64,000 nucleotides of DNA. Source: a virus. The notes beneath the pieces are model-generated. The model made no database searches. It saw only the letters and a program-made list of their open reading frames with translations, and was not told the DNA's origin. A program made the position numbers and the translations under genes. The stretch spans positions 1 through 64,000 of IMG/VR virus record IMGVR_UViG_3300025086_000013, one strand, 5' to 3'. Below, piece after piece: positions 11,214 to 64,000 of the stretch (the stretch's first letter is position 1; every line of letters begins with the position of its first letter).

Positions 11214-11384
11214 CTATTCTATTATTATTACTTTAATTGTATCAGCTTTAATTGTATCTTCATTACAGCAAGATTCTTCAATAATAGGTTTGGCAACATA
11301 ATCAGGATTATATTTATCTCCAGGATTAAATATTCCGCATCCTACAACAATCAATACCCATAAAACTGCTAATTCTCTCATCAT
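11214..11384 (-). CDS. Small lipoprotein, 56 aa (possible outer-membrane spanin)
   Basis: The start is placed at tandem ATGs just after the upstream stop (TAATATGATG); the longer frame from 11420 runs into the previous gene. MMRELAVLWVLIVVGCGIF is a lipoprotein signal with a lipobox ending V-G-C, so the mature protein would begin at Cys and be about 40 residues, with ESCCNED near its middle. Small lipoproteins near holin genes are often outer-membrane spanin subunits, but the mature part lacks the Pro-rich stretch of classical Rz1, so this remains a suggestion. Confidence 0.6.
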   Translation of the reverse strand: MMRELAVLWVLIVVGCGIFNPGDKYNPDYVAKPIIEESCCNEDTIKADTIKVIIIE

Positions 11385-11385
11385 A

Positions 11386-12213: not shown

Positions 12214-12231
12214 AACTTTACTTTTTTAAAT

Positions 12232-17044: not shown

Positions 17045-17638
17045 CTAATTGTATTTCATTTTAATAAAACCACCTCGTCTTAATGACTCAGCTTTTTCTT
17101 TAATTGCTCTTATATCTCCTGGTGACATCTTTCTATTATTAGGAGGATTCATTTCCATAGGAGTTAGTGGTCTGTTTCTTTCATTAATAACATCAAACGC
17201 TGATCCCCCCATTTGTCTAGGTGTATTTGCATTTGTCATATCTTTTTGTGGTTTTCTACCAGAATTAATAAGTTGTTGCTGTGCAGATTCTGCTGCTTGA
17301 ACTTCCATTTGCTTTTTTAATTCTATATTTTCTCTCATTGCTGCCTCAACAGTATTTATTAATGACTGTTGATCTTTCATGCCTTGCATATAAGTTTGTG
17401 CTTGACTTCTAGCTCTTTCATCTAACATTAGGTTTTGATTACCACCCAACATGCTATCTCTTTGCCAAAGAGCAAAATTATTTTGATCTTTCATAAGATC
17501 TTGTTTTGCTTTTCCTAAAGCATCTTGATTATATTGCTGCCTTGTCATTTTAGACATTTGCTTCTTAGGAGTTTTACCTCCTTCCTGAAACATACCCGGA
17601 ACCTTAGTTCCTTTTCTATTAAATACAGGTCTAGCCAT
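17045..17638 (-). CDS. Helical particle protein with KVPGM and Q-x-G-G module
   Basis: 197 residues. The first 25 carry NRKGTKVPGMFQEGGKTPKK, the same module found in the 8861, 11386 and 12232 proteins. The rest is Gln/Asn/Met-rich and helical (coiled-coil-like near residues 85-125, with Q-E-rich heptads). It ends with LRRGGFIKMKYN. No enzyme motif is seen. The N-terminal module may be an anchoring or cleaved sequence. Confidence 0.7.
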   Translation of the reverse strand: MARPVFNRKGTKVPGMFQEGGKTPKKQMSKMTRQQYNQDALGKAKQDLMKDQNNFALWQRDSMLGGNQNLMLDERARSQAQTYMQGMKDQQSLINTVEAAMRENIELKKQMEVQAAESAQQQLINSGRKPQKDMTNANTPRQMGGSAFDVINERNRPLTPMEMNPPNNRKMSPGDIRAIKEKAESLRRGGFIKMKYN

Positions 17639-21538: not shown

Positions 21539-21668
21539 GGTCTTCAAAAGTTCCAATAACATAATAGTCATTATCAGATATATATAAATCAAGAATAGTA
21601 CCAAAGTCTCTTTTAAGCTCTTCATACTTATCTTTATCTATCTTTATTATTTTTTTATGTACTGGCAT
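21498..21668 (-). CDS. Small protein, 56 aa
   Basis: ATG at 21668 overlaps the stop of the 1917-aa gene (TAATG), which supports translation. MPVHKKIIKIDKDKYEELKR, then FGTILDLYISDNDYYVIGTF and EDLKAVGVDPG: a likely small alpha/beta fold. Its last 41 bp overlap tail to tail with the DUF5522-like gene. It is the last gene of the giant leftward operon; the function is unknown. Confidence 0.6.
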   Translation of the reverse strand: MPVHKKIIKIDKDKYEELKRDFGTILDLYISDNDYYVIGTFEDLKAVGVDPGVPFV

Positions 21669-46700: not shown

Positions 46701-47216
46701 TGGATTTTTTACATACCTTGGCATTGGTGCTGATAAGGCTGCTTCATCAGTTCCATTTATAAAATCTTGCATTTCATAATCCATCCATACATCACCATCT
46801 CTCCAATAAAGCTCGCGTCTATCTCTATTATTAGAGTTCTTATATCTTTCCATTTCTCTTTTTTGACTTTGGTATCCTTTAGTATACATTAAGTCTTTAA
46901 CTATATTCTTATCTTCATAAAAAGGTCTAAATAAAGCTTTTGCTGTTTCAACATTTTGTTGTAATGAAAGATCTAAACCACTAACTTGTTTTAATTTACT
47001 ACTGAGTTGGTTAGCATATTGATCTCTTTTTATTTTATTATTCTCCCTAGATAAAGGAGCATATACTACTTGTCCATATAAGTCATTAATAGCTTTATGG
47101 TTAGTGTCATACCTATCTTGTCTAATTTGTAATACATCCTGAAGAAATTTATAGTCAGGAGTAAACGGCTCTAACTGAGGTATGTAAGTTTGAACATTTG
47201 GTAAATAACTAGGCAT
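43788..47216 (-). CDS. Large virion-type protein, 1142 aa
   Basis: It starts MPSYLPNVQTYIPQLEPFTP, followed by FLQDVLQIRQDRYDTNHKAI, an opening I associate with internal or tail proteins of large marine Bacteroidetes phages, though I cannot name a family. A long charged coiled coil lies near residues 395-450 (ELQRKKQIFEAAKIESQQIH), ended by a Gly/Lys/Asp linker (GKDGDPGKGKGSRG). The C-terminal half is Asn/Tyr/Asp-rich and probably beta. No signal peptide, no catalytic motif and no Q-x-G-G modules are seen. It sits three bases from the polymerase gene, so co-ejection or chaperoning of the polymerase is a reasonable guess. Confidence 0.7.
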   Translation of the reverse strand: MPSYLPNVQTYIPQLEPFTPDYKFLQDVLQIRQDRYDTNHKAINDLYGQVVYAPLSRENNKIKRDQYANQLSSKLKQVSGLDLSLQQNVETAKALFRPFYEDKNIVKDLMYTKGYQSQKREMERYKNSNNRDRRELYWRDGDVWMDYEMQDFINGTDEAALSAPMPRYVKNPNLFLEGQRLLSDPNGDGDTKDAMSIKYTTFEGDYMVQHVNGMGMTSQPYTDENGETKYRNVPMEFLAQAFQDDPKIKEGYFVQAKVREREWAEANKDKFGGDINAAKRQWRNDQLTEGTKDETIELAKLDTELKGDALTVEQWEEYKKTYGIKTGSVEDDFLFKKQVELSLKRKTRDKLSTHIQDQKSPTDDERALANKAYGAYMYGALKTDMYNTAVQYATRSHEQVYEVNKAELQRKKQIFEAAKIESQQIHDMNMEAIKHANDMELQKLKNKGKDGDPGKGKGSRGDIMDQIISTWNDAGDAARTGEAIDVDVIAENWGALNDAYEDNTKYMFGFVEQIYDNIGDAASVWNGGAGGGFDISKDPNNPNVVSMQEAKSHFLKAENYDQLKRIYNQAHEWYSDVEYIKPEGGGPAVALRTNFRGKWGEQLLDNLGQLSVEIAGAEAYLPEVSENFKKIEQQGLNILKNQEPNSQYAVNARNGYSDLVVTQGYYDLGRYGFTDADIFAPEDAVRADGQNHWDWIEEQVPWLVDEGYTGTESFRSRIFNSDLIHLSKNEYRNMILMQTQGRGTATVGTDGSVTHNNDGLGDLTNYLNSYYGNGGKNENGNSPFDDPNANNFMSRQNSLRGELWYWDGNNGWQYNKVKALELADAHYDDMTTQLNTIFTHEKAKNGEYPTPHVFNDLYGQDEILGSDQIIYPKNFSYINSVNIEDNPAALDNFYGLTQALKAPDATTIIKFGNYETQFPDETTDDAAAKLFLQSHWLRDFVNGDTEADERNATISWSQMMGGQESRVYNEATGEYDYYSGYVLTIPQDEMKKYAGLSLNNNDGDAKNIEDLMKGTNNQITILVKEEFDRQNNPKNMSRNRPNALQIIIDNSSAKTYQPVPIEGGGEVVYYVNGNGQYMERITMYGYNPDTGNFEPDAGRHSESVVDVRKLNAHFSTTQEFLKQNAAVQWTARNNDINEEDKK

Positions 47217-47278: not shown

Positions 47279-50170
47279 CTAATATGTGTTTCTTTTTACA
47301 AGTTTCCTTTTTGGTCTCTCTAATCCAAATCTAACAATAGGTAAAAAAGGTGTTTCAGAGCCATATGCTTGTGTAGGCAATGTTTGAGTCAATGGTGTAG
47401 TGTTTAAACCACCTGGATACATTGATTCATTTGCAACTATATTTGCATAAGGACTAACTGATTCTGTTTGTGTACCTGTTGTTTGACTTAATATATCTGA
47501 TACAACCTTTTCACTAATACCATCATCCATATAAGGATCAAGTTTTTCTAGAACATCTAATTGATCTTCTAAAAGATCTTTTTGATTTTCTTTATTTGGA
47601 TAGAATGCTTTAGGATCTGTTATATCAATTATACCACCAGTTGATGGGTCAATATCAAACTGAGGATAAGTCATATTTAAATTATGAGTCTTTGCTCTAT
47701 TAGTATAAGCATTTTGTAATTGAGATGTAATCTTCTCATTTGCAGCTCTTAATGCATTATCATAATTTTCTTCAACTAACATTGTCTTATCATATAAGTT
47801 AGATAATTCTTTTTTGTTAGCTTGCTGAGTTCTCATTTTAATTTCTGCATTTTTAGTAGAAACATCATTTGCAATTTTTGCATTTTGATTATCTACATTA
47901 GCCATTGCATCTGCAATTTGATCTGCTGCAACACCTTGAGCTTTAGCTTGTACAGCAGCAGCTCTTTGTGGACCAGCAAAAGCAGATGCTGTACTTGCAG
48001 CAATTGCAGCTTGTTCACCTATCTTAGCAATTTGTCTTGTAGGATCTAAAAATACTGGATCTATTAAATTCTCTTGATAAGTCATTCCAATAGGATATCT
48101 TTTCTTTAAACTAAACTTATTGTCAACAGCATTCATTATTCCTAATTGATCTTGTAACCAAAACTCTGGATCTTTTTCTTCTATTTGTTGAACCTCTTCT
48201 TCTATATCTTCTCCACATACACAACCTGTTCCTTCTTCATTATATGGTATCCAAGCCTTTCCTGCTGCAGCACAATCTGCTGCTTTTTGTGCAGCATCTG
48301 GACACTCATCTGTTTCATGTAAAGTTGATACACTTTGACGGTTATATGTATTACCATAATAACCATCATCAGATGAAATATTTTTATTTTCTCCTAGCTT
48401 TTCATCACCAACACCGGTTGCTGCAAATGTAGTGCCCTCTAACATATCACCATAATTATCATCTCTAGACATTTGATCCATTGTTATATAGAAATTTTGC
48501 ATTTGCTTTATATCATCTTGGCTCATTGGCTCACCTTCATAACCATGATTTTCTTTTAAATCTTTAATTGTATCATTATATTTCCAATTAACTTCTTCAA
48601 CATACTTACCATCATCACCTTTTATTTTTTTACCATCAGCATCTCTTCTATATTTTGTATCCCAGCCTTCATCACTTAAATAATCAGAATCATAATGCTC
48701 GCCTAAAAGATTTTTTTGTTTTGTATCTTCATAAAACAATTGATCTACTTGAGCCATTTGTTCTGTAGTTAATGAATCTACTCCTAATTGAGTTGCATAC
48801 TTTTTATAAAATTCTGTTCTAAAATCTCCCCATTCATCACTTTCCCAATTTTCTGTAAGATCTGTTCTTTGTTTTTTACTACTAACTTCATTTCCATCTT
48901 GATACCTTGGAGTTCCTCCATATATAAATTCTTTTAAAGGATTTTGCTCAAAAGGATTTCCACCATGTTTTACGTAACTATAGTCTTTATTTGGATCAGG
49001 TATTGTTGAATCAGCTAATGCATTTCTTACAGGATTACCAGCAAACATATCTGCAGTAGCTGCCATTCCTACTACATCTCCAGGACCAGGAACTGCAGAA
49101 ACTAAATTAGTTACAGCATCAGTATTATACCTAGCTTTTAAAGTTGGATCATCTGTTGCCCAAGCTCTACCTTTACTCACTCCCGCATTTACTAAATCAG
49201 GAACTGCACCAAGTACAGGAAAATTTCCTGCAACTTGTAAACCTCCTTGCAATGCATCTAGCCAACCTCCCTTTTGTGCCATAGGAATTCCAATAGGTGG
49301 AGGTGCTCCTTCAATACCACCTTCACCTTGAGGATTAGTTGATCCTTGTCTTGTTCCATATGGTGGAATAGGTTGTGGTGGTTTTGGTAACGTAGATTGA
49401 TAAAAATTATTAAATGTTTGTTTTGTTTCTAAATCTGATATAGGTGCTTCTAAACCTTGCTGTGCTTGTTGCAATTGAGCATTTGCTTGATCTATTTTTA
49501 AAGCAAATTCTTCAGGGTTTATTCCTTGCATTTTTAAATAAGGAAATGCTGCTTTTGGAACACCTGAATCAAATCCTTTTTTAGCTTCTTGAACAAAAGC
49601 AAGATGAGATAACTTTTTCTTATTTTTGTCTAACATGTATTCTGCAGTATCTACAGAAATTTTATCTGCATGAGGATCATCTAAAACTCCAATGAATTTA
49701 TTTAAATCATATTTTTTTGAAACTTTTGCAGGAGTTATTTTTTTCTTAGAATCAATTCCTAGTTCTTTTAACTCTCCTTTATTAAGCTTCATTGATCTTG
49801 TATCTGAATAAATAAATGATTGCTCAGGTAGATTTAAAGGGGTTCCTCCACTGTTATGTCGGTTACCAGCTATGTTATATAATTCAAATGATCCGTCATT
49901 ATTTAAATCAGTTAAAGCTGTTTCACCTTTTTCTGCTTCAAGATTTGCTTCATCTCTAGGAACTGGTTTAAGAGTATTATTAATAGTTCCTCCAGATGGA
50001 AAAAATGGAATATCACCATTAGAACCTGATGGAGTATATTGAGGAAATGTATTTAAACTATAATTACGTTGCACACCAGTTTTAAATCCACCGTGTTGCA
50101 TAGATTTAACAATTTTACCATTTGAAACTGAATACCCTGAAGGTAATTTATTTATTTTAACTCTTGCCAT
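47279..50170 (-). CDS. Large virion-type protein with Q-x-G-G modules, 963 aa
   Basis: An N-terminal region has KSMQHGGFKTG (about residue 24) and FFPSGGTINN; residues about 80-125 (EAEKGETALTD, NRHNSGGTPLNLP) form a beta-rich unit resembling particle proteins of crAss-like phages. Further modules are MAQKGGWLDALQGG (about 300) and PRYQDGNEVSSKK (about 425). An Ala-rich helical region with AAIAASTASAFAGPQRAAAV (about 720-750) could act on membranes. The C-terminus is basic (ERPKRKLVKRNTY). No enzyme signature is visible. It is probably a structural or ejected component that is processed or docked through the repeated modules. Confidence 0.7.
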   Translation of the reverse strand: MARVKINKLPSGYSVSNGKIVKSMQHGGFKTGVQRNYSLNTFPQYTPSGSNGDIPFFPSGGTINNTLKPVPRDEANLEAEKGETALTDLNNDGSFELYNIAGNRHNSGGTPLNLPEQSFIYSDTRSMKLNKGELKELGIDSKKKITPAKVSKKYDLNKFIGVLDDPHADKISVDTAEYMLDKNKKKLSHLAFVQEAKKGFDSGVPKAAFPYLKMQGINPEEFALKIDQANAQLQQAQQGLEAPISDLETKQTFNNFYQSTLPKPPQPIPPYGTRQGSTNPQGEGGIEGAPPPIGIPMAQKGGWLDALQGGLQVAGNFPVLGAVPDLVNAGVSKGRAWATDDPTLKARYNTDAVTNLVSAVPGPGDVVGMAATADMFAGNPVRNALADSTIPDPNKDYSYVKHGGNPFEQNPLKEFIYGGTPRYQDGNEVSSKKQRTDLTENWESDEWGDFRTEFYKKYATQLGVDSLTTEQMAQVDQLFYEDTKQKNLLGEHYDSDYLSDEGWDTKYRRDADGKKIKGDDGKYVEEVNWKYNDTIKDLKENHGYEGEPMSQDDIKQMQNFYITMDQMSRDDNYGDMLEGTTFAATGVGDEKLGENKNISSDDGYYGNTYNRQSVSTLHETDECPDAAQKAADCAAAGKAWIPYNEEGTGCVCGEDIEEEVQQIEEKDPEFWLQDQLGIMNAVDNKFSLKKRYPIGMTYQENLIDPVFLDPTRQIAKIGEQAAIAASTASAFAGPQRAAAVQAKAQGVAADQIADAMANVDNQNAKIANDVSTKNAEIKMRTQQANKKELSNLYDKTMLVEENYDNALRAANEKITSQLQNAYTNRAKTHNLNMTYPQFDIDPSTGGIIDITDPKAFYPNKENQKDLLEDQLDVLEKLDPYMDDGISEKVVSDILSQTTGTQTESVSPYANIVANESMYPGGLNTTPLTQTLPTQAYGSETPFLPIVRFGLERPKRKLVKRNTY

Positions 50171-50171
50171 A

Positions 50172-53100
50172 TTATATAAATTCTATTTCTGCACCTGCAG
50201 CCATTAATTCTTGTATTGTACTCTCATCTAACTCTATTGTTGTATCAATATCATCATATTGTCTATTTCTTAATTGTTCTGTTCTTCCCCCATCTTGAAA
50301 TTTTAAATTTAAACCTGCTCCAATAAATGGTGATCCTGTATCAACATTGTATCCACCTTTTATACTAACAGGTCCATAACCTGCTTCTAATCCAAGATTA
50401 ATTCCTGAATTGCTATCATATTCTCCATAACCACCAATGTTAGCTCCTGTATATTGTGCATCATTTATCATAATAGGAGAACCAGTATATCCAGCAGATA
50501 ACTTCCCTTTATAGAAAGCTTCTGGACTTATGTTACCTTCTGTAGCATTCATTAAGTTTGTCTGTGCTCCAGCTTCTCCACTTAAGTTTAAACCTAAACC
50601 ACTTCTTCCTGTATAGCCAACATGACTTTTAAGACCACCTTGTAATAAAGCATTATCTAAATCATTTCCTTCAACTCCAACAAAAGCTGAAGCTCCTGAA
50701 TCCACATAAGGATTACCAGCACAACCACCACCCTTACAGCCACCGGCATTTATAAAATTATAATCAGCTTCAAGTCCTCCACCTTGTTGAAATCCTCTAA
50801 ATCCAAAACCTTGAAATAATTGATTATATCCTTGCTTTTGTCTATCTGGATCACTAGATTGAAGGTTATCATCCATTTCTCTAAACTTGTCATCTTTTCT
50901 TAATGTTTCATAGCCTTTATCTATACCCCATTGTACTCCTGGTTCAATAACACCATAATATCCAGCTAACATAGGTAATACTCTACTTCCTACACCACCA
51001 CTAAAACCTTGTAAATTACGTGGATTTCTTAAATATGCTTTTGCCGCATCTTTAGTCCAACCTAATCCTTTAGTAAGATATTGAAAACCTTTATACCAAG
51101 CAGCTCCTTCAACTCCAGCGTTTATAATTGGAATTGGACTTCCACTATCTATTGCATCTGCAATTGCCATACCTGCTTCTTCAACTGCATATGCTGGAAA
51201 TTTAGCAGGGTTGTAACCCCATTCAGCAAAATCTACAATCTCATTAAGAATACCATCCCCAAGTATATTCTCAGTTCCAAATCCAAGTATATTATCTTTA
51301 CTGCTTACACTTACTAAATCTAATAAACCAAAACTTCTATCTCTTAACGCATCTGTGCTTAAAGGAGGTCTAGGATTTAATTTGTTTATAAGACTTCTTC
51401 TTTCATCATCTATATCATCTTGAACATGTGAATAATTCCATTCACCATCTTCACCTTCTCTCCATTTACCTATTTGTTGACAACTGCCATCAGGTAATCT
51501 TATATAACCATTAGGACATAATCCTTGATCTTGTTCTGAATATTCAGGATCTGTAAACATACTAATTACAGGAAGTTGATCCCAATTTCCTATAGGGTCT
51601 GTCATCCAGTCATTTAATTGTGGACTTATATCATAATGACCTTTAACTTTTGTTTCTTCATCTAATAAGTCATAATAATTTTGGCTAAGAGCATAATCTC
51701 CTTCTCCAAGCATCTCTTCTTTGTTAGGTAGAATATTGGTAATTAAATTATTAGATACAACACGTGTGTTGTCCATTTGATTACTATTATCATTATATAT
51801 AGTACCATCTTCTCCTATATTGTATCCAACAATTTTAGACTTAAGTTTTTCATTTTCATATTTTTGTATAACTGCTTTATCTTCTGAAGTATGCTGGTTT
51901 CTTGGATCAAGTGTAGGTAATAATTTAATTCTTTCTTCCATTTCATTTTGTTCCTCTTCTGACATATCCCACCAACCTTCTGGGTATTGTTCTAAATACC
52001 ATTTACTTGCTTCTCCCATTGGATTTTGTTCATATACATATCCAGGAAAATCTGGATTAATTACCAAACCTTCAGTTAATGTATCTCCTGGTAAAGCATT
52101 TAAGTCTGGATAAGCTATATTTAAAGAATCTAAATCTTCTTGACTATGATATTCATAAGGAAAATCTTTCCAATAAACTTCATTTCCATCTTGTATCTCA
52201 TTAGATCCTCCGCCTTGATATATAAATCTATTTAATTCAGTACCAAACTTACCTTGTCTTGATCTAACACGTTTATTTTGAAATCTTCCCCCTGTATTAA
52301 TATCTGTATCTCCTCTATTATCTTCATCACTAGCAGCTACAAATTGATTGTCTGCTAGATTCCATCTTTTCATTCCTTTAAGTCTATCTCTTTCTTTTTT
52401 CTGCTCTAACATTCTATTAAGAGGTTTAGCAATATTAACTATACCTGTAGAAATTTTATCAAATGTTTGTACACCTTTGCTATCCATAAACCTTCTGCCT
52501 TTATTATAAGCATCAGTTGCCCATTGTTCTGTTGTTCTTTTTCCTCCGGGTGTATTATTTACATCTCCATCATTATCAATTGTGTCATCTTCAATATTAT
52601 TATTATTGTTATTGTTGTTGTTATTATTGTTGTTATTATTTCCTGGTCCAGGTTGTATTTGAGGTTCATAATCAAGAGAATGATCAGGATCTCCATAACC
52701 CCAGCCTCCCCAAGCTCCTTGTGTATAATCTCTTTCTTGTAATAAATAAGGTTCTTGTTGATCTGGTGCATTTTGTGTTTGGCTTGTATATAAATTACCT
52801 CCACCTGTTTGATAGTGACTTATAGGTTGTTGAACATCCATTTGACCTCTTGGATTTCTTCTTTTATATTCATAATTTTTAACTCCATACTCATTAAGAT
52901 TTTCAGACCCTATTTGAGCTTTAGGAATAAATCTTCTCAATACATTTTCAGCAGCACCACCTTGTCTTTGTTCTGGAAGATTATAATTACCTTGTTGATC
53001 ATATTCTGAATATGGAACATTATCTGTACCAGTAAACATAGGATTATCTAACTCATCTAAACCTTCATATCTTGCACCACTATATCTAGTACCAAAAACA

Positions 53101-54266
53101 TCAATAAGACCATCTTCATCTTTTACCATTTTGTCTTCTAACCAATAAGGATCATCTTTAAACTCTTGACTACTTGGGTCAATGTCTTTTACTCTAAATC
53201 CCATATAATCTGCATCAGGATTTAAAGCTTCTATTAAATCACCTTTTCCTTGTGTTCCTTCGTCAATATCCCACTCCCCTGTTTCTTCATTATAACTTCT
53301 TTTACCAAATAATGATGGAGCATTCTCATGTCTTTGATCTAATATTTGACCAGTATAGTATTGAGTTTTTTCATCTTCAGTCATTAGATTTCCTGTCTCA
53401 GGATTAACATACATATCTTCATCTGTAGTATTTGTCCATGACTTTCTTTCATAACTTGCTGGATCAGTATCAATATAATTTTCTTTTTTAAAACTATCTA
53501 CTGTACCAGCTACTGCAGCAAATAAATCAAGAAACCCTGTATCACCTACACCAGCAAATCTTGATGTATAAGGCTCTGCACGGGGAACTCCTTTTTTTCT
53601 TTGAGGTCCCTGATACTGTTCATTAGATACATTTTTTGCACTACCAAGACCAGGGTATTTTTGATAAAAATCTTCAGTACCCCATACTTCAGATTGATTT
53701 TGTTCAGAACCATCTTGATATTCAGGTATAAAATCAGTTAAACCTCCATATTGGTATACAGGAGGCATTCCTTCCATCCCTTGAGGAGGAGCAGGTGGCA
53801 TCATTTGTTGAGGTGGTTGTTGCATAGGTTGGGGTATATTTCTTGCTCCTTCTGGAGATTGTGGCTCAACACCAGGTATTGGTGCTTCAATTGCATTAGC
53901 AGTAGCAACGGGCTCTTCTGTTAAAGCTTCTTCAATATATTTTGCTTGTATTGCATAAGAGGCACTATCATCTTCTATGGGACCGCCTTCTTCTACACTA
54001 TCACAAGTCATTCCCGCTTTACATTTAAAATAATTTTTCCAGCAATATCCTACACCTGGTTCTTTGTCATTACAGTTTTGCATTCTTTTAGATACATCAA
54101 AAAGAGCACAACTTTGACAACCACCACCACCATCAGATTCTCTATAATTATTATTTTCTACAGCTGCATTTTCATTAGCTGCTTGTAAATTAGGTATTTC
54201 ACAAGCAGAAGGACAAGCTTTAGCAGCTCCTCCTTTTTGATAACTATATGTTGCTTTATTAGCCAT
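50172..54266 (-). CDS. Large modular virion-type protein, 1364 aa
   Basis: It begins with YSYQKGGAAKAC and a Cys-rich region (about residues 14-80, including CQSCALFD and CWKNYFKC) that may bind metal. Q-x-G-G type modules recur at about 170 (VYQYGGLTDF, EYQDGSEQ), 450 (PKAQIGSENL), 485 (SHYQTGGGNL), 660 (FIYQGGGSNE, IQDGNEVYW), 1165 (GFQQGGGLEA) and near the end (LKFQDGGRTEQ). Residues 543-557 are a run of 15 Asn. The last 200 residues are Gly-rich and strand-like, with alternating G-Y-G units as in porin-like or adhesive folds. No catalytic motif is seen. The modules divide the chain into segments, as expected if the protein is cut into several mature products. Confidence 0.7.
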   Translation of the reverse strand: MANKATYSYQKGGAAKACPSACEIPNLQAANENAAVENNNYRESDGGGGCQSCALFDVSKRMQNCNDKEPGVGYCWKNYFKCKAGMTCDSVEEGGPIEDDSASYAIQAKYIEEALTEEPVATANAIEAPIPGVEPQSPEGARNIPQPMQQPPQQMMPPAPPQGMEGMPPVYQYGGLTDFIPEYQDGSEQNQSEVWGTEDFYQKYPGLGSAKNVSNEQYQGPQRKKGVPRAEPYTSRFAGVGDTGFLDLFAAVAGTVDSFKKENYIDTDPASYERKSWTNTTDEDMYVNPETGNLMTEDEKTQYYTGQILDQRHENAPSLFGKRSYNEETGEWDIDEGTQGKGDLIEALNPDADYMGFRVKDIDPSSQEFKDDPYWLEDKMVKDEDGLIDVFGTRYSGARYEGLDELDNPMFTGTDNVPYSEYDQQGNYNLPEQRQGGAAENVLRRFIPKAQIGSENLNEYGVKNYEYKRRNPRGQMDVQQPISHYQTGGGNLYTSQTQNAPDQQEPYLLQERDYTQGAWGGWGYGDPDHSLDYEPQIQPGPGNNNNNNNNNNNNNNNIEDDTIDNDGDVNNTPGGKRTTEQWATDAYNKGRRFMDSKGVQTFDKISTGIVNIAKPLNRMLEQKKERDRLKGMKRWNLADNQFVAASDEDNRGDTDINTGGRFQNKRVRSRQGKFGTELNRFIYQGGGSNEIQDGNEVYWKDFPYEYHSQEDLDSLNIAYPDLNALPGDTLTEGLVINPDFPGYVYEQNPMGEASKWYLEQYPEGWWDMSEEEQNEMEERIKLLPTLDPRNQHTSEDKAVIQKYENEKLKSKIVGYNIGEDGTIYNDNSNQMDNTRVVSNNLITNILPNKEEMLGEGDYALSQNYYDLLDEETKVKGHYDISPQLNDWMTDPIGNWDQLPVISMFTDPEYSEQDQGLCPNGYIRLPDGSCQQIGKWREGEDGEWNYSHVQDDIDDERRSLINKLNPRPPLSTDALRDRSFGLLDLVSVSSKDNILGFGTENILGDGILNEIVDFAEWGYNPAKFPAYAVEEAGMAIADAIDSGSPIPIINAGVEGAAWYKGFQYLTKGLGWTKDAAKAYLRNPRNLQGFSGGVGSRVLPMLAGYYGVIEPGVQWGIDKGYETLRKDDKFREMDDNLQSSDPDRQKQGYNQLFQGFGFRGFQQGGGLEADYNFINAGGCKGGGCAGNPYVDSGASAFVGVEGNDLDNALLQGGLKSHVGYTGRSGLGLNLSGEAGAQTNLMNATEGNISPEAFYKGKLSAGYTGSPIMINDAQYTGANIGGYGEYDSNSGINLGLEAGYGPVSIKGGYNVDTGSPFIGAGLNLKFQDGGRTEQLRNRQYDDIDTTIELDESTIQELMAAGAEIEFI
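52596..52640 (-). repeat. AAT/AAC codon repeat (15 Asn)
   Basis: A 45-bp run of mixed AAT and AAC codons within the 1364-aa gene, bounded by G-P-G and I-E-D-D. It is probably an unstructured linker and a likely site of length variation between relatives. Confidence 0.85.
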
Positions 54267-54323: not shown

Positions 54324-57300
54324 TTATAACTTTCTGATATGATCATAAATATGTCTTCCTTTCTTTTTAGCATCTGTATAATATAATCTATTTATTTTAT
54401 CAATATATTTCTTAACTCCTTTTTCATCAGATGTACCATCAAATTTTCCATCTATGTATTCATTGTATATTCTAATTTGTGTATTTAAATCAAAAGCTCC
54501 TCCTGGAATATTTTGTTTTATTGCTCCACCTTTTTTTATTTTTGGAGTTCCAATTCCATATATATTATCTGATCCTATTTTATTTTGTGTTTGATGAACT
54601 TCTGGAGGTTTATTATTATTTCCTGCTCCAGGTTGTAATATATAATTACCAACATCTTTCCAAAATCCTGATGATTCATATTCACCTAGAACATCTACTT
54701 TCCCTGGTTGATTTACATCTGCTATATCTAAACTATAAACATCAATAAGTGGATAATAATTTGAAACTCTTTTTGAATAATTTTCTCTTTCTGGATTCCA
54801 TGTTTGAGCTAAATAGTCTCGTACATAATTTTGATCAGATTTCTGTTCTGCTGTAAAATTATCTGTTCTGCTATTGTATCTATGTGCAATTATTGCTTGA
54901 GTTGCTATTGCGGATTTTTGAGGATCCATAAGATCATGCTGACTTGTTATACCTAACTCATTAAGTAATTCTTTTTCTGTATCATCTAAAGCTACATCCC
55001 ATTTTATTTGTGTCCAACCAACACTATCTCTTGAACTTTTTGCACTCAGTTTTTTCTTATTTCCTTTATAATCTATTTCTATATCACCAATCTGACCCCA
55101 ACTATGATATTTTCTATTAACATCAGGATTTGTATTACCAATACCAGATGCTTTAGATATACCAAGACCCATATTAAGAATCTCAGGATTTATATTACCC
55201 ATACCACTTTCTACACCATATATACCAAAACTAGTTGGTATAAGCATGTCATATATATCACTAGGAATTCCTGAATTTACTTTTACAAGTGCATCTAAAA
55301 TTTGTTTTTTATTATTAACTATTGCATTTAAATAAGGTTCTGTATGTTTTTGAAATTCCATATCTTCATGAGCAGCATAAGAATTATAATCTAAATTGCT
55401 TTCTTGAATTTTATTTTTATCTATAGAAATACTTACAGGATGATACTTTATACTTTCAGCACTTCTCATAATACCCTGACCTTCTCTCCATACTTGATCT
55501 TCTGAATCAAAATACCAACCACCTTGGTTTCTTCCTATTTCTCCAGTTTCTGGATGTTCTGGATTTTCTACTTCTCCTTTAAATGAAAGTTTTCCATCTT
55601 GATAAATAAACGTATTTTGATCTTTAAATTCAGGAAGGACATATACATTAGTTCCTTTTTTTATTGTGCCAAGTAACTCATTTAAATCACCACACTTCAT
55701 ATTAATGCATCCATATGATTGTCTATTATCATCTGTAGCATGAGAATATAATCCTTTTTTTCTTTGTTGTTTTTCTTCCCAATTAACAGTATTAGGTATA
55801 CCATGTAAACTCATTGATATATTTTCACCTTCTCCCATTCTATCATGTGTAAGATTAAAAGATGGAACATCTCTTCTTTGACCTGTTTCGTCCCAATAAC
55901 CTGAATCTGGATCTACATTAGAGATAGTAAATATTCCAGCTCCTGTTTGCATATTACCTGCACTCCAATCATATGTCCATAACTTCTTACCATTTTTCCA
56001 TACTTTATCATCGTCATTTATTATACCATCTTTATTTATATCTAAAGGTTTTGTAACTGTTTGTTGATCACCAGGATTTTCTCCAATTAATATATTATAA
56101 CTTCTTGTTGGATCTTTTTGTCCTGGATAATATAAATGTGTTTTACCAGCTATTTTATCTACAACTAAAAAAGGATCACCAGCAGGCTTCTTAACAATTA
56201 AATTTTGACCTGGATAAAGAGTACTGTCTTCACTTAATCCGTTATCAACTAATAATTGTTTTATGCTTGTTTGATTTTCATTTGCTATTTTTCCTAAGTA
56301 GTCTCCGTCTTGTATTGTATATGATAATTCTTCTACAGTTTCATCTGGTTTATTTTCTCCTTCATAGAATAAAATCTTTTCTACATTTTGTAATTTATTT
56401 ATATCTCTATTATTATTTATTTTTCTATCTATATTTCTCCATGGCCCTACTGCATCTTCATAGTCAGGAGTATTCTTATCACTATATATTGAATCAACTA
56501 ATGTATTTTCTATTTCTATTCTATCATTAGTACTACCATTATTTAAACCATTATTTTCTAAATCTGCTTCTGTAGGTGTCCATGCTTCTCCTTTAAGATT
56601 AGTTCTAAATTTATTTCCTCTATAATCAAATATTTTATTTGGTCCTAAATTTTCTCTAGCTTTTTCAAATGCTTCACTAAATGTTTTAAAATCATCATAA
56701 AGTAATTTTGGTGTTTTTTTATTATTAGATGGTGATTCGTTTTTAAGTTTTACAGAATCATCAATTCTAATATGACTTGGATTAGATTTATATTGTGGAT
56801 TTAATTCAAGAACTTCTTCTAAGGTCATATCATTTGATCTAGCAATTCTTGTTAAATTATCTCCCTTTTTAACTTTATAAACACTTCCTCCATCTTGAAG
56901 TTTTGGTATATCATTATCAATTAGTCCATACTCAAACAATTCATCTTTTACAATTCCTGATACTTTACCTCCTTCTTTATATTTTTTTAATTGTTGTTGA
57001 AGTGTTTTAATTTTTTTATCATTTTTTTCATACTCTCCTCCTGCTTCAAATTGTTTTTCTTTTACATCTTCTTCTGTATAATCTCCTAATAACTTTTCAA
57101 CAATTTCTGGAGGTAAATTATTTAAAATATAATCTTCATAAGAACTTGATTTATCATATTCCTCTATAGATTTTCTAAAATGATTTATATATTGTTCTGG
57201 TGTTTTATTTTGTTGATCAGCATTTTCACCATATAAACTTGGAAATACTTCTGATAAAGACTTTCCATCTCTAACAACATATCCAAGATATTCTCTTGTG

Positions 57301-60300
57301 CCTTGTCTCCCTAAAAAGTTAACTAATGCAGCAAGTTCAGTTTTATTAAATGGCATATTTATTTGACCAGAGTATTCACTGTATACTTCATCTGCTGCTG
57401 CTTTTAAACCTCTTTCACCTTTAAACAAACTTCCATCAAATCTTTTTTTGAATGTATTTTCTTGTGCTTCAAAATCTGCTATAAACTCATCTCTTGATCC
57501 ATCATATAAACTATTGTCTGTTAACTCTGAAAATCTTTGACCATATAATCCACTTGCACTAGATTCTGAATTTTTTAATAATTGTCCATTTGCACTTTCA
57601 ACAGCTATAATACCTGCCTTAAGTTTATTATAATCAACATGATAATCATCTATTCTATCTTGAGGTATTCTTACAGGGTTACCATTTTGGTCAACATTAT
57701 TAGGATCATAGTACATTCTACCATATAATTCAAAAGGTTTACCAACTATTTTTTCTGCTGGTATAGTATAAGAACCATCTTCTCCTTTTTCTCCAAATAA
57801 CCAACCTGCTGAAGCAAATGCTCCTTTCATAGGTATATCAAAATCAAACTGATCATAATAAGAAACATAAGGGAGTTTGCGTTCTTCATCATAACCCTTT
57901 GAAAGTTTATAATTATTCATAGCAAAACCTCCAGAAGAAGAATCTTTTATATATAGATTATCTTCTTGTTTTGAATTTTCAGTTTTTGGTCTTTTCTTTA
58001 AAAACTCATATGATAAAACATCACTCCATATATCATCATCCCAATTAAAAGAAAAATATTTTTTAGCTTTTTTTATTGCACCTTTAATAGTTGGTGAAAA
58101 TTTTGATTCAGATATAGTATTATTTTCTGGTTCAAAACCTAAATATTTATCCCAAAGATCTTGTGAAGATTGTTTAATATATTCAGATTGTTCTGGTGGT
58201 AAATTTAAATTTTCTCCAAAAGTATCCCATGTTTGAGTTTTTCCATCCCATTCAAATGGTAATTTTTCACCAGCAATTAGTTCTTTAAAAGCATGATCTA
58301 TATTATATCCAATTGGAGTTACAGAAGATCTCATACGTTGTGCTAGCATTCCTGGTTCTACTTCTCCTTTTTTCTGAAACCTTACAAGTTCTGCTCCATA
58401 CTTAGCTTTAGGTTTTTCAGATTTTTGTAACATTTTTTGAAGAACCTCATAATTTTTTTGACCATAAGCATTTTTAAATATATCTAAATCTCTAATTAAA
58501 TCTTCACTAGTATAATCTTCTCTTTTAGTAGCATCTAATATTGCTTGTCCTGATGTATTTATTTTTGAAGATTGTTTAGTATTTTGTAATTCTCCCATAA
58601 GTTCTTCAACGGTTTCAGAAATTTTAGGAACGTATCTCCATTGATTTTTTCCAAAATAACCAGAATCATCTTTTACTAGATCATAATGTTCTCTTTGGTA
58701 TTCTGCTCCAGGATCATCTGATTTTAACCAGTCAAGTTCGTTTTGAAATGAATCATGTTTATCAGATTTTAAAAGCCATCCATCTTTTCCTACAGAAGGT
58801 CCATGATATTTATTATCATATGTTTCAGGAATCCAACCTTCTTCTCCCCAATAATCAGATTTTTTACTTTGATTAAAATCTTTTGGTTTACCCATAGCCT
58901 CCCAAAGACCTTCCATATTATAGTTAGGATCTTCTGTTTTAAGATTTTCTGGCAAAGTGTTTACAAAAGAGTTATAATCATCTCTTTCATTTTGCATATC
59001 AGGAGTTAAAACAATTTCTGGAATATCTCCAGTAAGAGGTGGTGAACCATAAGAAGCACCTGCTGGTTTAGGAACAAATCTAGATCTTTGAGGTAATTGT
59101 GTTTTTGGATTAGTTGGCATACCATCTATAGTTACCGGATCTAAAGTTATTGTTTGAGAATCTCTCCAATATCTAAAATCAGGATTACTTATATAATCTA
59201 GTAAATCATCATGTTTATGATTAAATCCTTCATCTCTAAAAGCTTGTTTTAATCTTCCAGGATTTTGAAACCACTTCATATCTTTTTGTGAAACTGCAAA
59301 TCTAATACCTCCTCTATCATTTACAATATCTATTTCACCAGTTCTAGGATCTAAACGTAAATGGTCCTTTCCTATTAAATTGTATTTTTGTTTTATATCA
59401 CCAGGAAGCATGTATAAGTCTTCATCTCTAAGTGTATAACTTAAAGGAGTTTTATCACCATAATAATTCCAACCACTCCATGTTTTACCTTGTTTGTTAA
59501 CTCTTAAATCTCTTTGATAACCTTGTTGATACCATTCTTCACGTCCATATTCTTTTCTTTCTTCTGGTGTTAAATCAAACCAACTACTATATTGACTTAT
59601 GGAGCCTTTACCTTTTTTCTTTAAATCTGTTACATATTCTGGATTAAGATTAGCAAGCCCTGATTGATCATTTCCACGTGCATAAGTTCTCCATCCACTA
59701 TTACCTTTGTATTCAAGAGTGTATGTTTTCTTACCTCTATCATTAATATTTTCTCTAACCCTCATGTTTCCTGTAGTGTTATGGACTAAACTTGGCCAAG
59801 CTTGTTGAGAATGTTTTTTTGTATCTTTAAATAATGATTTACCTCTATAGCTTAAAAAATTATCTAATTCGTGTCTTTCTATATCAAAGTATCTTCTTTT
59901 ATATTTTTTATCTTTATAATCATATTCTTCATAATCTGTCCAATCATTTGCAGGAACATATTTTTTTTCATTAGCTCCATACTTTTTAATTTCCCACTCT
60001 TCTTTTTCATCATCATCCTCTCCTCCTTTCTGATATATGTTTAAATCTAATAATGGTTTTCCTGTATTAAGTTTTTCTTGTACTATATTTTTCATAAAAG
60101 GTGCAAAGGGTCCTCTATTGTCTGGCATATTTTCATATTTGTTTAACCATTCTTTTAATTCAGGTTTACTATATTCATCAATTCTTCTTTGAAATAATCC
60201 TAAATCAGATTTTGTTGGAATGTTATCTAATTGATGAGCTTGTGGAGACCATGCGCCTGACCATACATCATCAAATTTTCTTCTAGAGTGTAATCCAAAT

Positions 60301-61307
60301 TCTGGTGATTCTTGATGAGAATAAGGAGAAGATGCTGAACTACTTACACCTCTTAAACCATCTTGTCTATATGGATTATATTTTTCCCAACCTAAATAAT
60401 ACTTACGGTCATTCATATTAATAGGATCTAATTTTAACGAATTAATATATTGATTATGAATTTTTCCATTTTCTAATTTAAGTTGTTTATATTCTGTCAT
60501 TAAAGCATCTCTTTCAGATTTAGAAATATTTTTATCAAATATTTTCATTCTAAGATTTTTAATTTTAGATGCATATTGCATACTTTCTTTACTTAATATA
60601 ACATCATATTTTGAATCTTTTAATCTGTTATACAGTTGATAATCTCCTGTAAAAATTTTTGTTTCATTTGGATATTTAAATTGACCATAAAAATATGTAT
60701 CATTTAATGAATTAGATCTAAGATTACCTGGATTAAGTTTCATAGCTCCATCCATTGGAAGATGTATAGTAGTTAGTGCATCATCCCAATTTCCTACATG
60801 ATGATTTATAACTGAACTTCCACTTCCAGAAAAATGTGTAGTACGTGCATTATTAATCAAGTTTCCATTTTGATCAAAATCTATATATCTTCCTTTATCT
60901 CGTCTTATTAAATTGCCTTCAAAAGGTTTTGTTTCATCTATAAAGTCAAATCTATTTCTTGAAATATTACCAGGCCCTTGCACATTAGATGTTGGATTTT
61001 GTTGCCCAGATGTTCCATAATTAGTAGTGTTTGGCTTTGGTTTTGGATTCCACCAATCTTTTATTTTAGAAATAATACCTTTTTTCTTTTTAGATCCTCC
61101 TCCTTGCATTAAAGGTACTTCAAATACTTCATTACCAGGAAATATATAATCAGCACCAGGCATCATAATTTGACTATTACCAAGGTTATCAGTTCCTCTT
61201 ACAGGAAAGTCTACACCTTTCATAGTTATATTACCTGATGGTATTATATTATAGGGATTGTTTTTATCCTTGCTATTTCTTTTATATCCGTTTTTACTAT
61301 ATTTCAT
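54324..61307 (-). CDS. Giant wall-active virion protein: two lysozyme-like, two LysM, one YkuD domain
   Basis: 2327 residues. Near 1230-1300: AGIIAVESANGQ with E1237 and SESSASGLYG, a transglycosylase-like core. Near 1474-1520: LysM 1 (VYKVKKGDNLTRIARSNDMT). Near 1660-1705: LysM 2 (YTIQDGDYLGKIANENQTS). Near 1709-1880: L,D-transpeptidase (YkuD) domain with H1835 in LHGIPN and C1867 in SYGCINM. Near 2025-2180: a second lysozyme-like segment, GIYGVESGMGN with E2033 and SRDSVGWTQIKW. Q-x-G-G modules (PLMQGGGSKKK, NIYQKGGEDD, KLQDGGSVYKV) punctuate the chain, one directly before LysM 1. It should bind and open or edit peptidoglycan at entry or exit. It is coupled by TAATG to the upstream protease gene. 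Confidence 0.85.
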   Translation of the reverse strand: MKYSKNGYKRNSKDKNNPYNIIPSGNITMKGVDFPVRGTDNLGNSQIMMPGADYIFPGNEVFEVPLMQGGGSKKKKGIISKIKDWWNPKPKPNTTNYGTSGQQNPTSNVQGPGNISRNRFDFIDETKPFEGNLIRRDKGRYIDFDQNGNLINNARTTHFSGSGSSVINHHVGNWDDALTTIHLPMDGAMKLNPGNLRSNSLNDTYFYGQFKYPNETKIFTGDYQLYNRLKDSKYDVILSKESMQYASKIKNLRMKIFDKNISKSERDALMTEYKQLKLENGKIHNQYINSLKLDPINMNDRKYYLGWEKYNPYRQDGLRGVSSSASSPYSHQESPEFGLHSRRKFDDVWSGAWSPQAHQLDNIPTKSDLGLFQRRIDEYSKPELKEWLNKYENMPDNRGPFAPFMKNIVQEKLNTGKPLLDLNIYQKGGEDDDEKEEWEIKKYGANEKKYVPANDWTDYEEYDYKDKKYKRRYFDIERHELDNFLSYRGKSLFKDTKKHSQQAWPSLVHNTTGNMRVRENINDRGKKTYTLEYKGNSGWRTYARGNDQSGLANLNPEYVTDLKKKGKGSISQYSSWFDLTPEERKEYGREEWYQQGYQRDLRVNKQGKTWSGWNYYGDKTPLSYTLRDEDLYMLPGDIKQKYNLIGKDHLRLDPRTGEIDIVNDRGGIRFAVSQKDMKWFQNPGRLKQAFRDEGFNHKHDDLLDYISNPDFRYWRDSQTITLDPVTIDGMPTNPKTQLPQRSRFVPKPAGASYGSPPLTGDIPEIVLTPDMQNERDDYNSFVNTLPENLKTEDPNYNMEGLWEAMGKPKDFNQSKKSDYWGEEGWIPETYDNKYHGPSVGKDGWLLKSDKHDSFQNELDWLKSDDPGAEYQREHYDLVKDDSGYFGKNQWRYVPKISETVEELMGELQNTKQSSKINTSGQAILDATKREDYTSEDLIRDLDIFKNAYGQKNYEVLQKMLQKSEKPKAKYGAELVRFQKKGEVEPGMLAQRMRSSVTPIGYNIDHAFKELIAGEKLPFEWDGKTQTWDTFGENLNLPPEQSEYIKQSSQDLWDKYLGFEPENNTISESKFSPTIKGAIKKAKKYFSFNWDDDIWSDVLSYEFLKKRPKTENSKQEDNLYIKDSSSGGFAMNNYKLSKGYDEERKLPYVSYYDQFDFDIPMKGAFASAGWLFGEKGEDGSYTIPAEKIVGKPFELYGRMYYDPNNVDQNGNPVRIPQDRIDDYHVDYNKLKAGIIAVESANGQLLKNSESSASGLYGQRFSELTDNSLYDGSRDEFIADFEAQENTFKKRFDGSLFKGERGLKAAADEVYSEYSGQINMPFNKTELAALVNFLGRQGTREYLGYVVRDGKSLSEVFPSLYGENADQQNKTPEQYINHFRKSIEEYDKSSSYEDYILNNLPPEIVEKLLGDYTEEDVKEKQFEAGGEYEKNDKKIKTLQQQLKKYKEGGKVSGIVKDELFEYGLIDNDIPKLQDGGSVYKVKKGDNLTRIARSNDMTLEEVLELNPQYKSNPSHIRIDDSVKLKNESPSNNKKTPKLLYDDFKTFSEAFEKARENLGPNKIFDYRGNKFRTNLKGEAWTPTEADLENNGLNNGSTNDRIEIENTLVDSIYSDKNTPDYEDAVGPWRNIDRKINNNRDINKLQNVEKILFYEGENKPDETVEELSYTIQDGDYLGKIANENQTSIKQLLVDNGLSEDSTLYPGQNLIVKKPAGDPFLVVDKIAGKTHLYYPGQKDPTRSYNILIGENPGDQQTVTKPLDINKDGIINDDDKVWKNGKKLWTYDWSAGNMQTGAGIFTISNVDPDSGYWDETGQRRDVPSFNLTHDRMGEGENISMSLHGIPNTVNWEEKQQRKKGLYSHATDDNRQSYGCINMKCGDLNELLGTIKKGTNVYVLPEFKDQNTFIYQDGKLSFKGEVENPEHPETGEIGRNQGGWYFDSEDQVWREGQGIMRSAESIKYHPVSISIDKNKIQESNLDYNSYAAHEDMEFQKHTEPYLNAIVNNKKQILDALVKVNSGIPSDIYDMLIPTSFGIYGVESGMGNINPEILNMGLGISKASGIGNTNPDVNRKYHSWGQIGDIEIDYKGNKKKLSAKSSRDSVGWTQIKWDVALDDTEKELLNELGITSQHDLMDPQKSAIATQAIIAHRYNSRTDNFTAEQKSDQNYVRDYLAQTWNPERENYSKRVSNYYPLIDVYSLDIADVNQPGKVDVLGEYESSGFWKDVGNYILQPGAGNNNKPPEVHQTQNKIGSDNIYGIGTPKIKKGGAIKQNIPGGAFDLNTQIRIYNEYIDGKFDGTSDEKGVKKYIDKINRLYYTDAKKKGRHIYDHIRKL

Positions 61308-64000
61308 TATCTAAAGGATAGGTTAAGTTTTGTATTAACTAATTTAAGTAACATTTTTCTTTGATGAAGAATAACTTCTCCAGGTTGGAAATGGAATTCG
61401 TCTATCCAAAAACCTTCAGTTTCTTCAACTCTTTTTCTAAGAATTAAGTTATTTACATAATGTCTAAATTTCTTTCTTTCTAATTGAGGTTTATTATAAT
61501 CTAAATAAGCATCATTTAGATCTCTAATATAACCATTTAATTGAGTTATAAACATTGACTCAGAAACATTTCTGTTTGAAGTTATATCCCAAAATTGATC
61601 AAATCTATATTTTTGTTCTACTTTACTATATAGTATTTGAATGTCATTTGCACCAATTATTGGATAAGAAATTATATCATTTACATCAGGTGTTTGCTCT
61701 ACAAGAGTTAACAACCCAGAAACTTGTTCTGTATTATAAATAATAGCTTCATCAAAGTTATACATTAAATCATGCCATCTATCATCACATCCATAATTTA
61801 ATGCACAGCCTTCGTCATCTAATTGTACTTTGTATTCAAAAGCTTCCATTTGATATTCAACACTTCTTACTGTATTAACCGCTTGACCTACAGATTCTAC
61901 AAGTTCAATTTCCCATGGATATTGTATATCATAATAATTATTAAATAAATCACAACGTACATTATGTTTCCATAAACTGCTTGATTCAGTTACAGGAAAT
62001 ACTTGTGGTGCAATATTAAATTCATCTTCACAAATTCTTATTTTACATTCTACACCTATTGTTGACTCTTGTTCATTAAATATTGTTAAACAATCTATTT
62101 CTTCTGCTGGATCCCATGTTCCTATAAAATACATATCATAACCTTCTGGACACTCACATGTTAATGCTGTTAGTTCTATTCCAGTAGTACCACCAGGATC
62201 TACTATTTCAGTTATTGGATCATCAGTTGAGCATTCTAAACAACCTTCATCAAGAGCATCTTGTAAAGTAGGTTCAAGTCTTTGATCTATAACTACAGGG
62301 TGAAATTCCCAAGGAAATTCAAAATCTCCTGTACCTATACCCCATTGACCATAACCCATAATTGTTGCATATTGAACATTTGAATAAAAGTTAGCTGTAT
62401 CAGGTGGTATATTACCTGGGGGATCAAAACATCCAGGTGCTTCAATTGGATCTTCATTATCATCTAATTCACCAGCATCCCATGCTTCATATGTTTCTAT
62501 ATAAGTATCTTGATATGAATTTAAAGTATCTAAAGGACCTCCAAAAAATCCAAAATCAGGATCTGGATCATATGCAGTACAAGAATGAGTATGAGATGCA
62601 CCAAGGTTATGTCCTATCTCATGCATTACAACTTTAAAAGACCAAGATGAATCAAAATCAGAATTTAAAAATCCTTCAGGATTAAATTCTATATTTTGAC
62701 TTAAAGGTGCAGCAATACCATAAGCTCCTGGAGTTGATTCACAATAATCTGGTGATACATCATGGTTACATACTCCACCTATACCCCATGCTTGACCACC
62801 TTCAAGAACTTCATCATTCATACTAAATATATATACTAAACTTCTGTCAACTGCAATTAAATCTGGATCTGTTGTCCACTCAGCAATAAGAGTTTGTAAA
62901 TAACAAGTTCTAATTTTATGAATACTACCATTATCACAACCACCACAAGGAAAAGACATTGAAAAATTATCATTTAATGTCCATATACGAAGATAATTAA
63001 GTGTCACCTGTGTATCTAATTGATCTTCATATACTTCACTAACTCCAGCTATAATCATAGTCACCCAATCTGTAAGTGCATTAATATTATCTGCTTCATC
63101 ACCATTATTAAATTCTTCATAAGTATACTTATCAATTTCAATTGCCATTTTAATACAACCTCCAGTTGAAGATCTAGCTTGTTTTGCAGATGCTTTTCTT
63201 GCTGCTTTTGTAATATCATCAGTGGTTGCACAATCAAATATTGGAATTCGTTTTGAATCAAATGTATTATATAAAATATATTTAGTTTTATCTTTACTTG
63301 CTTTCTTTTTAACATCTGAATCTTCAACAGTAAATTCATAAATTTTCTTACCCTTTCTAATTACTCCAAACATTTTAGTTTCCATAAATGTTATAGATCC
63401 TTTTAAATCTTTTTCTCCACGAATTTTATATGAAACTGCTTTAGATACATATGGATCTTTCACTCTTCCTTTTTCTGTTTCTAAAACTACTTGAAAATCT
63501 TTTGAATGTACATTGACAAGTTCTAATGGTAATTTAAGAGTTTGGTTATCCATAAAAGGAACAGTTATACTAAATCTTTTAGGCTTTGATAATCTAATGT
63601 CTTTAAGTATACTATCTTCTATTTCAAAGTAAATAGAATTATTTTTATTTTTTGTTACACTTGCATTTTCAATATGTATTCTATTAAATGGTGGCATATC
63701 ATCACCATCATCTATAATGGCAAAATCAAATGTAAAATCAGGAGTTCCTTGACCATAATTACCACCATATTCAACTTTACAACATTGTGGAGGATCTAAT
63801 GTTTCATCAAGTTCATAACCAGGACCACACTCCCAAGTTGCATCATTTATACACATACCAAATTCATCCATAGTATACCCTGGAGGACATATTGGATCCA
63901 ATCCTTTTATTGTATTAGTTGTAAGAAAATGATTATAACTAGACATAGTAAGTTCAGGATGCCAATCATGAAATGATATCCATCCTTTAATCTTAGGGTC
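61307..64000 (-). CDS. Virion-type protein with reprolysin-like zinc protease domain, 5' end outside window
   Basis: The frame is open through the right edge; 18 residues precede the ATG at 63946, including GWISFHDWHPELTMSSYNHF, which looks like coding sequence of a crAss-type tail or neck protein, so the start lies beyond 64000. Counting from the 63946 Met, residues about 265-535 form a metzincin protease: H442-E-I-G-H446-N-L-G-A-S-H452 and the Met-turn ATIMGYG with M530, as in reprolysin (M12B-like) enzymes. Cys-rich segments flank it (CPPGYTMDEFGMC near 20; a second with CECPEGYDMYF near 605). The C-terminal 200 residues are helical. It may cut host surface proteins or process phage proteins. 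Confidence 0.8.
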   Translation of the reverse strand, partial: DPKIKGWISFHDWHPELTMSSYNHFLTTNTIKGLDPICPPGYTMDEFGMCINDATWECGPGYELDETLDPPQCCKVEYGGNYGQGTPDFTFDFAIIDDGDDMPPFNRIHIENASVTKNKNNSIYFEIEDSILKDIRLSKPKRFSITVPFMDNQTLKLPLELVNVHSKDFQVVLETEKGRVKDPYVSKAVSYKIRGEKDLKGSITFMETKMFGVIRKGKKIYEFTVEDSDVKKKASKDKTKYILYNTFDSKRIPIFDCATTDDITKAARKASAKQARSSTGGCIKMAIEIDKYTYEEFNNGDEADNINALTDWVTMIIAGVSEVYEDQLDTQVTLNYLRIWTLNDNFSMSFPCGGCDNGSIHKIRTCYLQTLIAEWTTDPDLIAVDRSLVYIFSMNDEVLEGGQAWGIGGVCNHDVSPDYCESTPGAYGIAAPLSQNIEFNPEGFLNSDFDSSWSFKVVMHEIGHNLGASHTHSCTAYDPDPDFGFFGGPLDTLNSYQDTYIETYEAWDAGELDDNEDPIEAPGCFDPPGNIPPDTANFYSNVQYATIMGYGQWGIGTGDFEFPWEFHPVVIDQRLEPTLQDALDEGCLECSTDDPITEIVDPGGTTGIELTALTCECPEGYDMYFIGTWDPAEEIDCLTIFNEQESTIGVECKIRICEDEFNIAPQVFPVTESSSLWKHNVRCDLFNNYYDIQYPWEIELVESVGQAVNTVRSVEYQMEAFEYKVQLDDEGCALNYGCDDRWHDLMYNFDEAIIYNTEQVSGLLTLVEQTPDVNDIISYPIIGANDIQILYSKVEQKYRFDQFWDITSNRNVSESMFITQLNGYIRDLNDAYLDYNKPQLERKKFRHYVNNLILRKRVEETEGFWIDEFHFQPGEVILHQRKMLLKLVNTKLNLSFR

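Follow-up and report, generated by a model that had tools for sequence, protein, structure and literature searches.

Phage enzymes that act on the cell wall during entry are usually regarded as cutters. In T7 gp16 and other ejected transglycosylases, the domain resides within a large protein, stored in the particle until its ejection ahead of the DNA; T7 gp16 carries a single transglycosylase domain and neither LysM nor YkuD, unlike the 2327-aa protein described here. In PhicrAss001, the genes following the muzzle gene encode cargo proteins that were found by mass spectrometry, and the product of the gene after the muzzle, gp45, is found partly within the tail and is the one expected to leave first (PMC10172136); the same structure paper does not mention peptidoglycan. 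In bacteria, L,D cross-links are needed before the muramidase TtsA can act and let protein through the wall (PMC6996933), the L,D-transpeptidase activity of YcbB (LdtD) readying the wall for this specific muramidase. In the literature that we searched, which excluded most subscription journals, phage YkuD domains appeared in endolysin lists only (PMC13284279, PMC5017753), and the literature on crAss-like phages that we examined did not mention transpeptidases.

We analyzed a window of 64,000 bases, comprising the first 64 kb of the 94,934-base viral record IMGVR_UViG_3300025086_000013. The features that concern us are listed below, in window coordinates and with residue numbers referring to the 2327-aa protein.

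61307 to 63946, minus strand: final part of the muzzle (tail-gate) gene; the whole gene extends to about 69970 of the record
54324 to 61307, minus strand: wall-domain protein, 2327 aa, ATG start, one open frame
61104 to 61307, minus strand: N-terminal module, residues 1-68
57078 to 57665, minus strand: SLT1, lytic-transglycosylase-like, residues 1215-1410, with catalytic glutamate E1237 (57597-57599)
56748 to 56885, minus strand: LysM 1, residues about 1475-1520 (Pfam)
56190 to 56324, minus strand: LysM 2, residues about 1662-1706 (Pfam)
55593 to 56180, minus strand: YkuD (L,D-transpeptidase fold), residues 1710-1905, with H1835 (55803-55805) and C1867 (55707-55709)
54708 to 55355, minus strand: SLT2, lytic-transglycosylase-like, residues 1985-2200, with E2033 (55209-55211) and an S-x-G-x-T-Q motif
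54327 to 54512, minus strand: conserved C-terminal tail, residues about 2266-2327
50172 to 54266, minus strand: next gene of the cargo operon, 1364 aa, rich in [YF]QxGG motifs
47279 to 50170, minus strand: cargo-operon gene, 963 aa, kept in relatives
43788 to 47216, minus strand: cargo-operon gene, 1142 aa, kept in relatives
27456 to 43784, minus strand: giant virion RNA polymerase, 5442 aa, with DFDID at about residue 3958, matching PhicrAss001
21668 to 27421, minus strand: RNA-polymerase-associated cargo protein, 1917 aa, matching PhicrAss001 gp49 (4e-27)

The rest of the record holds the muzzle gene together with genes for terminase, portal and major capsid protein, the latter three named by eye and from gene order. 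On sequence grounds the source genome is a crAss-like phage (Crassvirales, taken broadly), because it encodes a DFDID-bearing virion RNA polymerase and a muzzle homologue. BLASTP revealed resemblance of the 5442-aa polymerase to PhicrAss001 gp50 (1e-13) and gp47 (2e-4), and a weak match of the muzzle gene to gp44 (8.6e-4). Thus the order known from PhicrAss001, with a muzzle gene followed by cargo genes and then the virion RNA polymerase, recurs here with homologues of gp44, gp49 and gp50. When PhicrAss001 gp45 was compared with the proteins of the record (BLASTP, E up to 1), no match to the 2327-aa protein was obtained, and the link to gp45 is therefore positional. The 963- and 1142-aa proteins were considered as homologues of PhicrAss001 gp45 and gp46, and no similarity was detected, nor did gp45 or gp46 resemble other cargo-operon proteins of the window.

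The 2327-aa gene heads an operon running from the muzzle toward the giant virion RNA polymerase, and sits amid structural and tail genes (muzzle, portal, major capsid protein and virion RNA polymerase). Its ATG overlaps the muzzle stop codon by one base (TAATG), and the corresponding open reading frame (ORF) starts exactly at the muzzle stop in 38 further loci; for ten YkuD proteins an upstream muzzle was undetected. A scan of related records for the virion polymerase, with PhicrAss001 gp50 as the query, found a gp50-type polymerase in a giant ORF in 19 of the 20 that carry an ORF in this slot. We propose, with a probability of about 0.72, that the 2327-aa protein serves this crAss-like phage as a virion cargo (ejection) protein, cutting and editing the wall at entry.

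The earlier note on this DNA had read five wall-active domains in this one chain, with catalytic residues E1237, H1835, C1867 and E2033, and all four residues were found at these positions. Pfam identified two LysM domains (2.9e-19) and the YkuD domain (3.3e-10), and missed both transglycosylase cores, neither of which matched any Pfam family even when searched alone up to an E-value of 10; both were therefore examined by structure prediction, which supported them and so bore out the five-domain reading. SLT1, modelled from 34 natural relatives, gave a confident structure for residues 1215-1410 (pLDDT 92, pTM 0.88). Its best match in the PDB was Campylobacter jejuni Cj0843 (Z 9.2, rmsd 3.8, 129 aligned), other top matches included Pseudomonas aeruginosa Slt, MltE, MltC, MltF and goose-type lysozyme, almost all top matches being lytic transglycosylases or lysozymes, and phage phiKZ gp144 was matched with Z 8.4. 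SLT2 was taken from a 1005-residue model built on seven relatives, with a local pLDDT of 80-90; the region of about residues 1969-2191 matched the lytic transglycosylase MltF (Z 8.3, rmsd 3.3, 131 aligned), and also Tse3. These Z scores are middling, and the models support the assignment of both cores to the fold of the GH23-type lytic transglycosylase superfamily. Sequence-profile searches of the PDB with the SLT1, SLT2 and YkuD alignments gave no meaningful match. Aligning shallow profiles with single E. coli MltD, EmtA and LdtB sequences in hhalign was too weak to be informative; the EmtA-SLT1 and LdtB-YkuD pairs were nonetheless in register over the catalytic motifs. A structure search also returned a LysM protein of virus NIOZ-UU157 (A0A7S9XDV9), which over the part compared, SLT1, shows 48% identity and a TM score of 0.68.

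Relatives of each domain were gathered by three further scans of viral contigs. The SLT1 glutamate E1237 was present in 41/41 distinct relatives (median pairwise identity 44%), the YkuD residues H1835 and C1867 each in 31/31 (38%), and the SLT2 glutamate E2033 with its S-x-G-x-T-Q motif in 29/29 (36%), counts that do not represent independent events because the relatives come from overlapping metagenomes. Catalytic residues had thus not been lost in relatives, and their invariance at median identities of 36-44% is, as judged from these alignments, far from chance. Taken with the predicted fold, the invariant glutamates support the prediction that both cores are peptidoglycan-cleaving domains with intact catalytic residues. 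It could be argued that the domains are non-catalytic binding modules of a wall-adhesion cargo or structural protein, as one relative (L008) retains a decayed SLT2 copy and several others have no such domains. That the catalytic residues are among just 11-15 invariant columns in the alignments of 41 (SLT1), 31 (YkuD) and 29 (SLT2) distinct relatives makes this extremely improbable.

The YkuD domain scored 41.2 bits with PF03734 (cut-off 23.4), and more divergent relatives fall below this cut-off. Its structural model was poor, with pLDDT mostly under 50, and we base its identity on Pfam for this reason; the model itself matched L,D-transpeptidases (Z 8-10), in line with Pfam. Like LdtB, LdtD, LdtE and DpaA, the phage domain scores above the Pfam cut-off for YkuD and has a histidine followed by a cysteine, and it shares [ST]-x-GC with LdtD, LdtE and DpaA. 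It differs from these enzymes by a longer loop between the histidine and cysteine, by an asparagine after GC-x, and by its fusion to LysM and transglycosylase domains, a form found here in the phage lineage only. The phage signature is [ST]-x-GC-x-N, with 20-28 residues from the catalytic histidine to the S/T and no histidine before GC. The L,D-transpeptidase motif has been given as HX14-17-[ST]HGCh (PMC9638812); this strict form is absent from the phage YkuD, and E. coli LdtD and LdtE (SSGC) likewise do not have that histidine, the motif of the hydrolase DpaA being SIGC. As LdtD and LdtE are cross-linkers that also lack the second histidine, the strict motif is an unreliable definition of these enzymes, and the phage motif does not tell a cross-linker from other YkuD enzymes. 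We had considered its absence as the mark of a non-cross-linker, following the H129A variant of Tlde1a (PMC9638812), and dropped this idea in view of the SSGC of LdtD and LdtE. Enzymes with the YkuD fold include transpeptidases, carboxypeptidases and endopeptidases (PMC12729407), and Tlde1a, an injected YkuD-type effector, trims and exchanges stem residues (PMC9638812). The phage YkuD may cross-link, trim or exchange peptides, each of which is compatible with the sequence, and the activity described in the earlier note as "cross-link-forming" stands as one option beside a carboxypeptidase or an endopeptidase.

We searched 50,697 phage records with the whole protein and with the YkuD domain, and obtained no relative beyond matches to LysM. 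The YkuD domain had a sole match in 84,980 genomes of bacteria and archaea, itself a contig of a crAss-like phage. This contig (L136) is filed under a Pseudomonadales MAG, and has a muzzle, the N-terminal module, LysM, YkuD and SLT2. A virion-associated wall enzyme with YkuD in a modular cargo slot may be new, and YkuD may be rare in viruses.

The ends of the slot proteins are constant and the interiors variable. The N-terminal module of about 67 residues is up to 88% identical among relatives and occurs as one copy per genome where found. Three slot proteins (L011, L015 and L031) match the 2327-aa protein near the N-terminus only and have unrelated interiors, the C-terminal tail is kept even in a relative without wall domains (L016), and the slot proteins measure 509 aa at the shortest and over 3000 aa at the longest. 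The most distant carrier of the module, Cellulophaga phi4:1 gp40 (39% identity over the module), is annotated as found in particles by MS/MS proteomics. Because the module is constant, single-copy and attached to differing interiors, and because its phi4:1 carrier is in particles, it is a candidate for a module that docks proteins in the particle or addresses them to it. The proteins phi4:1 gp40 and phi17:2 gp41 (PHROG 36695) resemble the 2327-aa protein in having this module and in sharing strand and operon with a muzzle homologue. They differ in being 895 aa long and free of wall domains, with the module of about 67 residues alone in common; a separate preceding gene, phi4:1 gp41 or phi17:2 gp42, holds lysozyme-like and zincin-like parts, and in phi4:1 it is this lysozyme/protease-like protein that comes after the muzzle. 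The synteny with the muzzle and virion RNA polymerase, together with the MS/MS detection of this distant relative with the same N-terminal module, lends indirect support to the earlier note's reading of a particle-type protein. The module may be the address by which proteins are loaded into these particles, and the slot, with fixed ends, an exchangeable interior and a position right behind the tail gate, provides a natural series of entry payloads for comparison. In another group of phages, which encode GroEL and GroES, the N-terminal module occurs as a stand-alone gene of 78-80 aa upstream of terminase (L018-L026).

A function in lysis, as an endolysin or a late lysis aid, in place of one in entry would account for some of these features: LysM with transglycosylase is the usual composition of an endolysin, the PHROGs matches are endolysins, and SLT1 stands alone as a 199-aa gene next to an M15-like peptidase in one relative (L052). 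The gene, however, belongs to the operon of muzzle and cargo genes and encodes a chain of 2327 aa with the N-terminal module of a virion protein, and the holin-like gene at 9616-10011, beside which a lysis-cassette enzyme would be expected, lies 44 kb away. By hydrophobicity this chain has neither an export signal nor a stretch typical of a membrane helix (maximum 19-residue KD 0.78), and a role in lysis appears very unlikely.

We next consider which domains travel together. Slot architectures range from zero wall domains to SLT1-LysM3-YkuD-SLT2, and LysM 1 is missing from one relative (L002). SLT2 was accompanied by YkuD in 33/33 distinct ORFs, and YkuD by SLT2, which follows it, in 33 of 38 proteins. 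SLT1 occurred in 48 distinct ORFs, 12 of them with YkuD. These counts indicate that LysM-YkuD-SLT2 moves as a single unit and that SLT1 is a cutter independent of it. L008 has lost YkuD, and its SLT2 remnant has neither the glutamate nor the SVGWTQ motif, a joint loss and decay that is expected if YkuD and SLT2 cooperate. Several close slot-mates (L011, L015, L016 and L031) lack all of these wall domains, and the wall payload is therefore not essential to the slot. The contig that carries L082 and L008 is itself crAss-like, with 245,646 bp over twice the size of the other related records, and encodes two polymerase-like giant ORFs of 5461 and 5791 aa.

The inheritance of YkuD in a block with the wall-cutting SLT2 indicates a joint editing-and-cutting role at entry. 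It also bears on the suggestion of the earlier note that the phage reseals the wall or marks it against rival phages, in which YkuD would make new cross-links after entry and so reseal or reinforce the wall, avert lysis, or alter the wall against later phages. Without any need for new precursors, YkuD folds of this family can make 3-3 cross-links, the catalytic histidine and cysteine are invariant, and the SSGC variant also occurs in LdtD and LdtE, which form cross-links in E. coli. Resealing should nevertheless track SLT1 as well, yet many slot-mates have SLT1 and no YkuD, and the usual partner of YkuD is a cutting enzyme; the suggestion thus found no support in the distribution of the domains, and we consider it unlikely. 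The YkuD domain might instead bond the phage chain covalently to peptidoglycan, fixing the entry channel in place, as host L,D-transpeptidases are known to attach proteins to the wall (PMC12729407), and LysM tethering on the same chain and the constant C-terminal tail would fit such an arrangement. With no anchoring residue or acceptor peptide identified, and with data that do not favour anchoring over the trimming of stem peptides, it is highly improbable.

For the proposed entry protein, we envisage the following sequence of events. Docking or addressing of the protein in the particle near the muzzle would fall to the N-terminal module and possibly also to the C-terminal tail, with the interior as an exchangeable payload. 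On opening of the tail, the chain would be extruded into the periplasm before the DNA, and the LysM domains would keep it on glycan strands, which SLT1 and SLT2 would cut. YkuD would modify nearby stem peptides, upon which the paired SLT2 could act or the mesh would loosen, and the outcome would be a local passage for cargo proteins, such as the virion RNA polymerase, and DNA. In a more specific and tentative version, which we regard as possible though doubtful, the particle-delivered YkuD edits cross-links (or bonds the chain to the wall), and the transglycosylase on the same chain acts only at sites marked by the phage. The proposed cooperation of YkuD with SLT2 would resemble the preparation of the wall for TtsA by YcbB, with the difference that those are two separate bacterial enzymes engaged in the outward export of typhoid toxin, and the phage would use one chain directed inward. 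If edit-then-cut is true, the protein would be a self-targeted entry device, more than a wall drill. A glycan cutter joined to a fold that remakes peptide bonds, as a pair conserved in crAss-like cargo, would show that entry can include editing of the wall, and by what means a phage could keep damage local to its site of entry.

Further observations concern neighboring genes and related phages. The muzzle protein contains, in the part encoded at 61307-63946 of the window, a reprolysin-like M12 zinc metallopeptidase domain (Pfam 3.4e-15), and the tail gate itself may therefore bear a protease. The [YF]QxGG motif occurs 13 times in the proteins of the record, compared with 0.6 times in shuffles, and was noted in the ORFs at 50172-54266, 8861-13047 and 17045-17638, with six of the 13 copies in the 1364-aa protein; it is also present in phi17:2 gp41. 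The possibility that the 2327-aa chain is a polyprotein cleaved at [YF]QxGG was dropped, as this protein has a single strict motif. The same phage carries a spore-photoproduct-lyase-like radical SAM gene (window 7033-7899) and a B12-type ribonucleotide reductase (window 19543-21402). Finally, a second, stand-alone YkuD-like family of about 210-220 aa, with the motif IHRAT...WSAGCQVI, is encoded near the terminase gene in two related phages (L035, G002:143246-143866; L036, G004:109774-110442).
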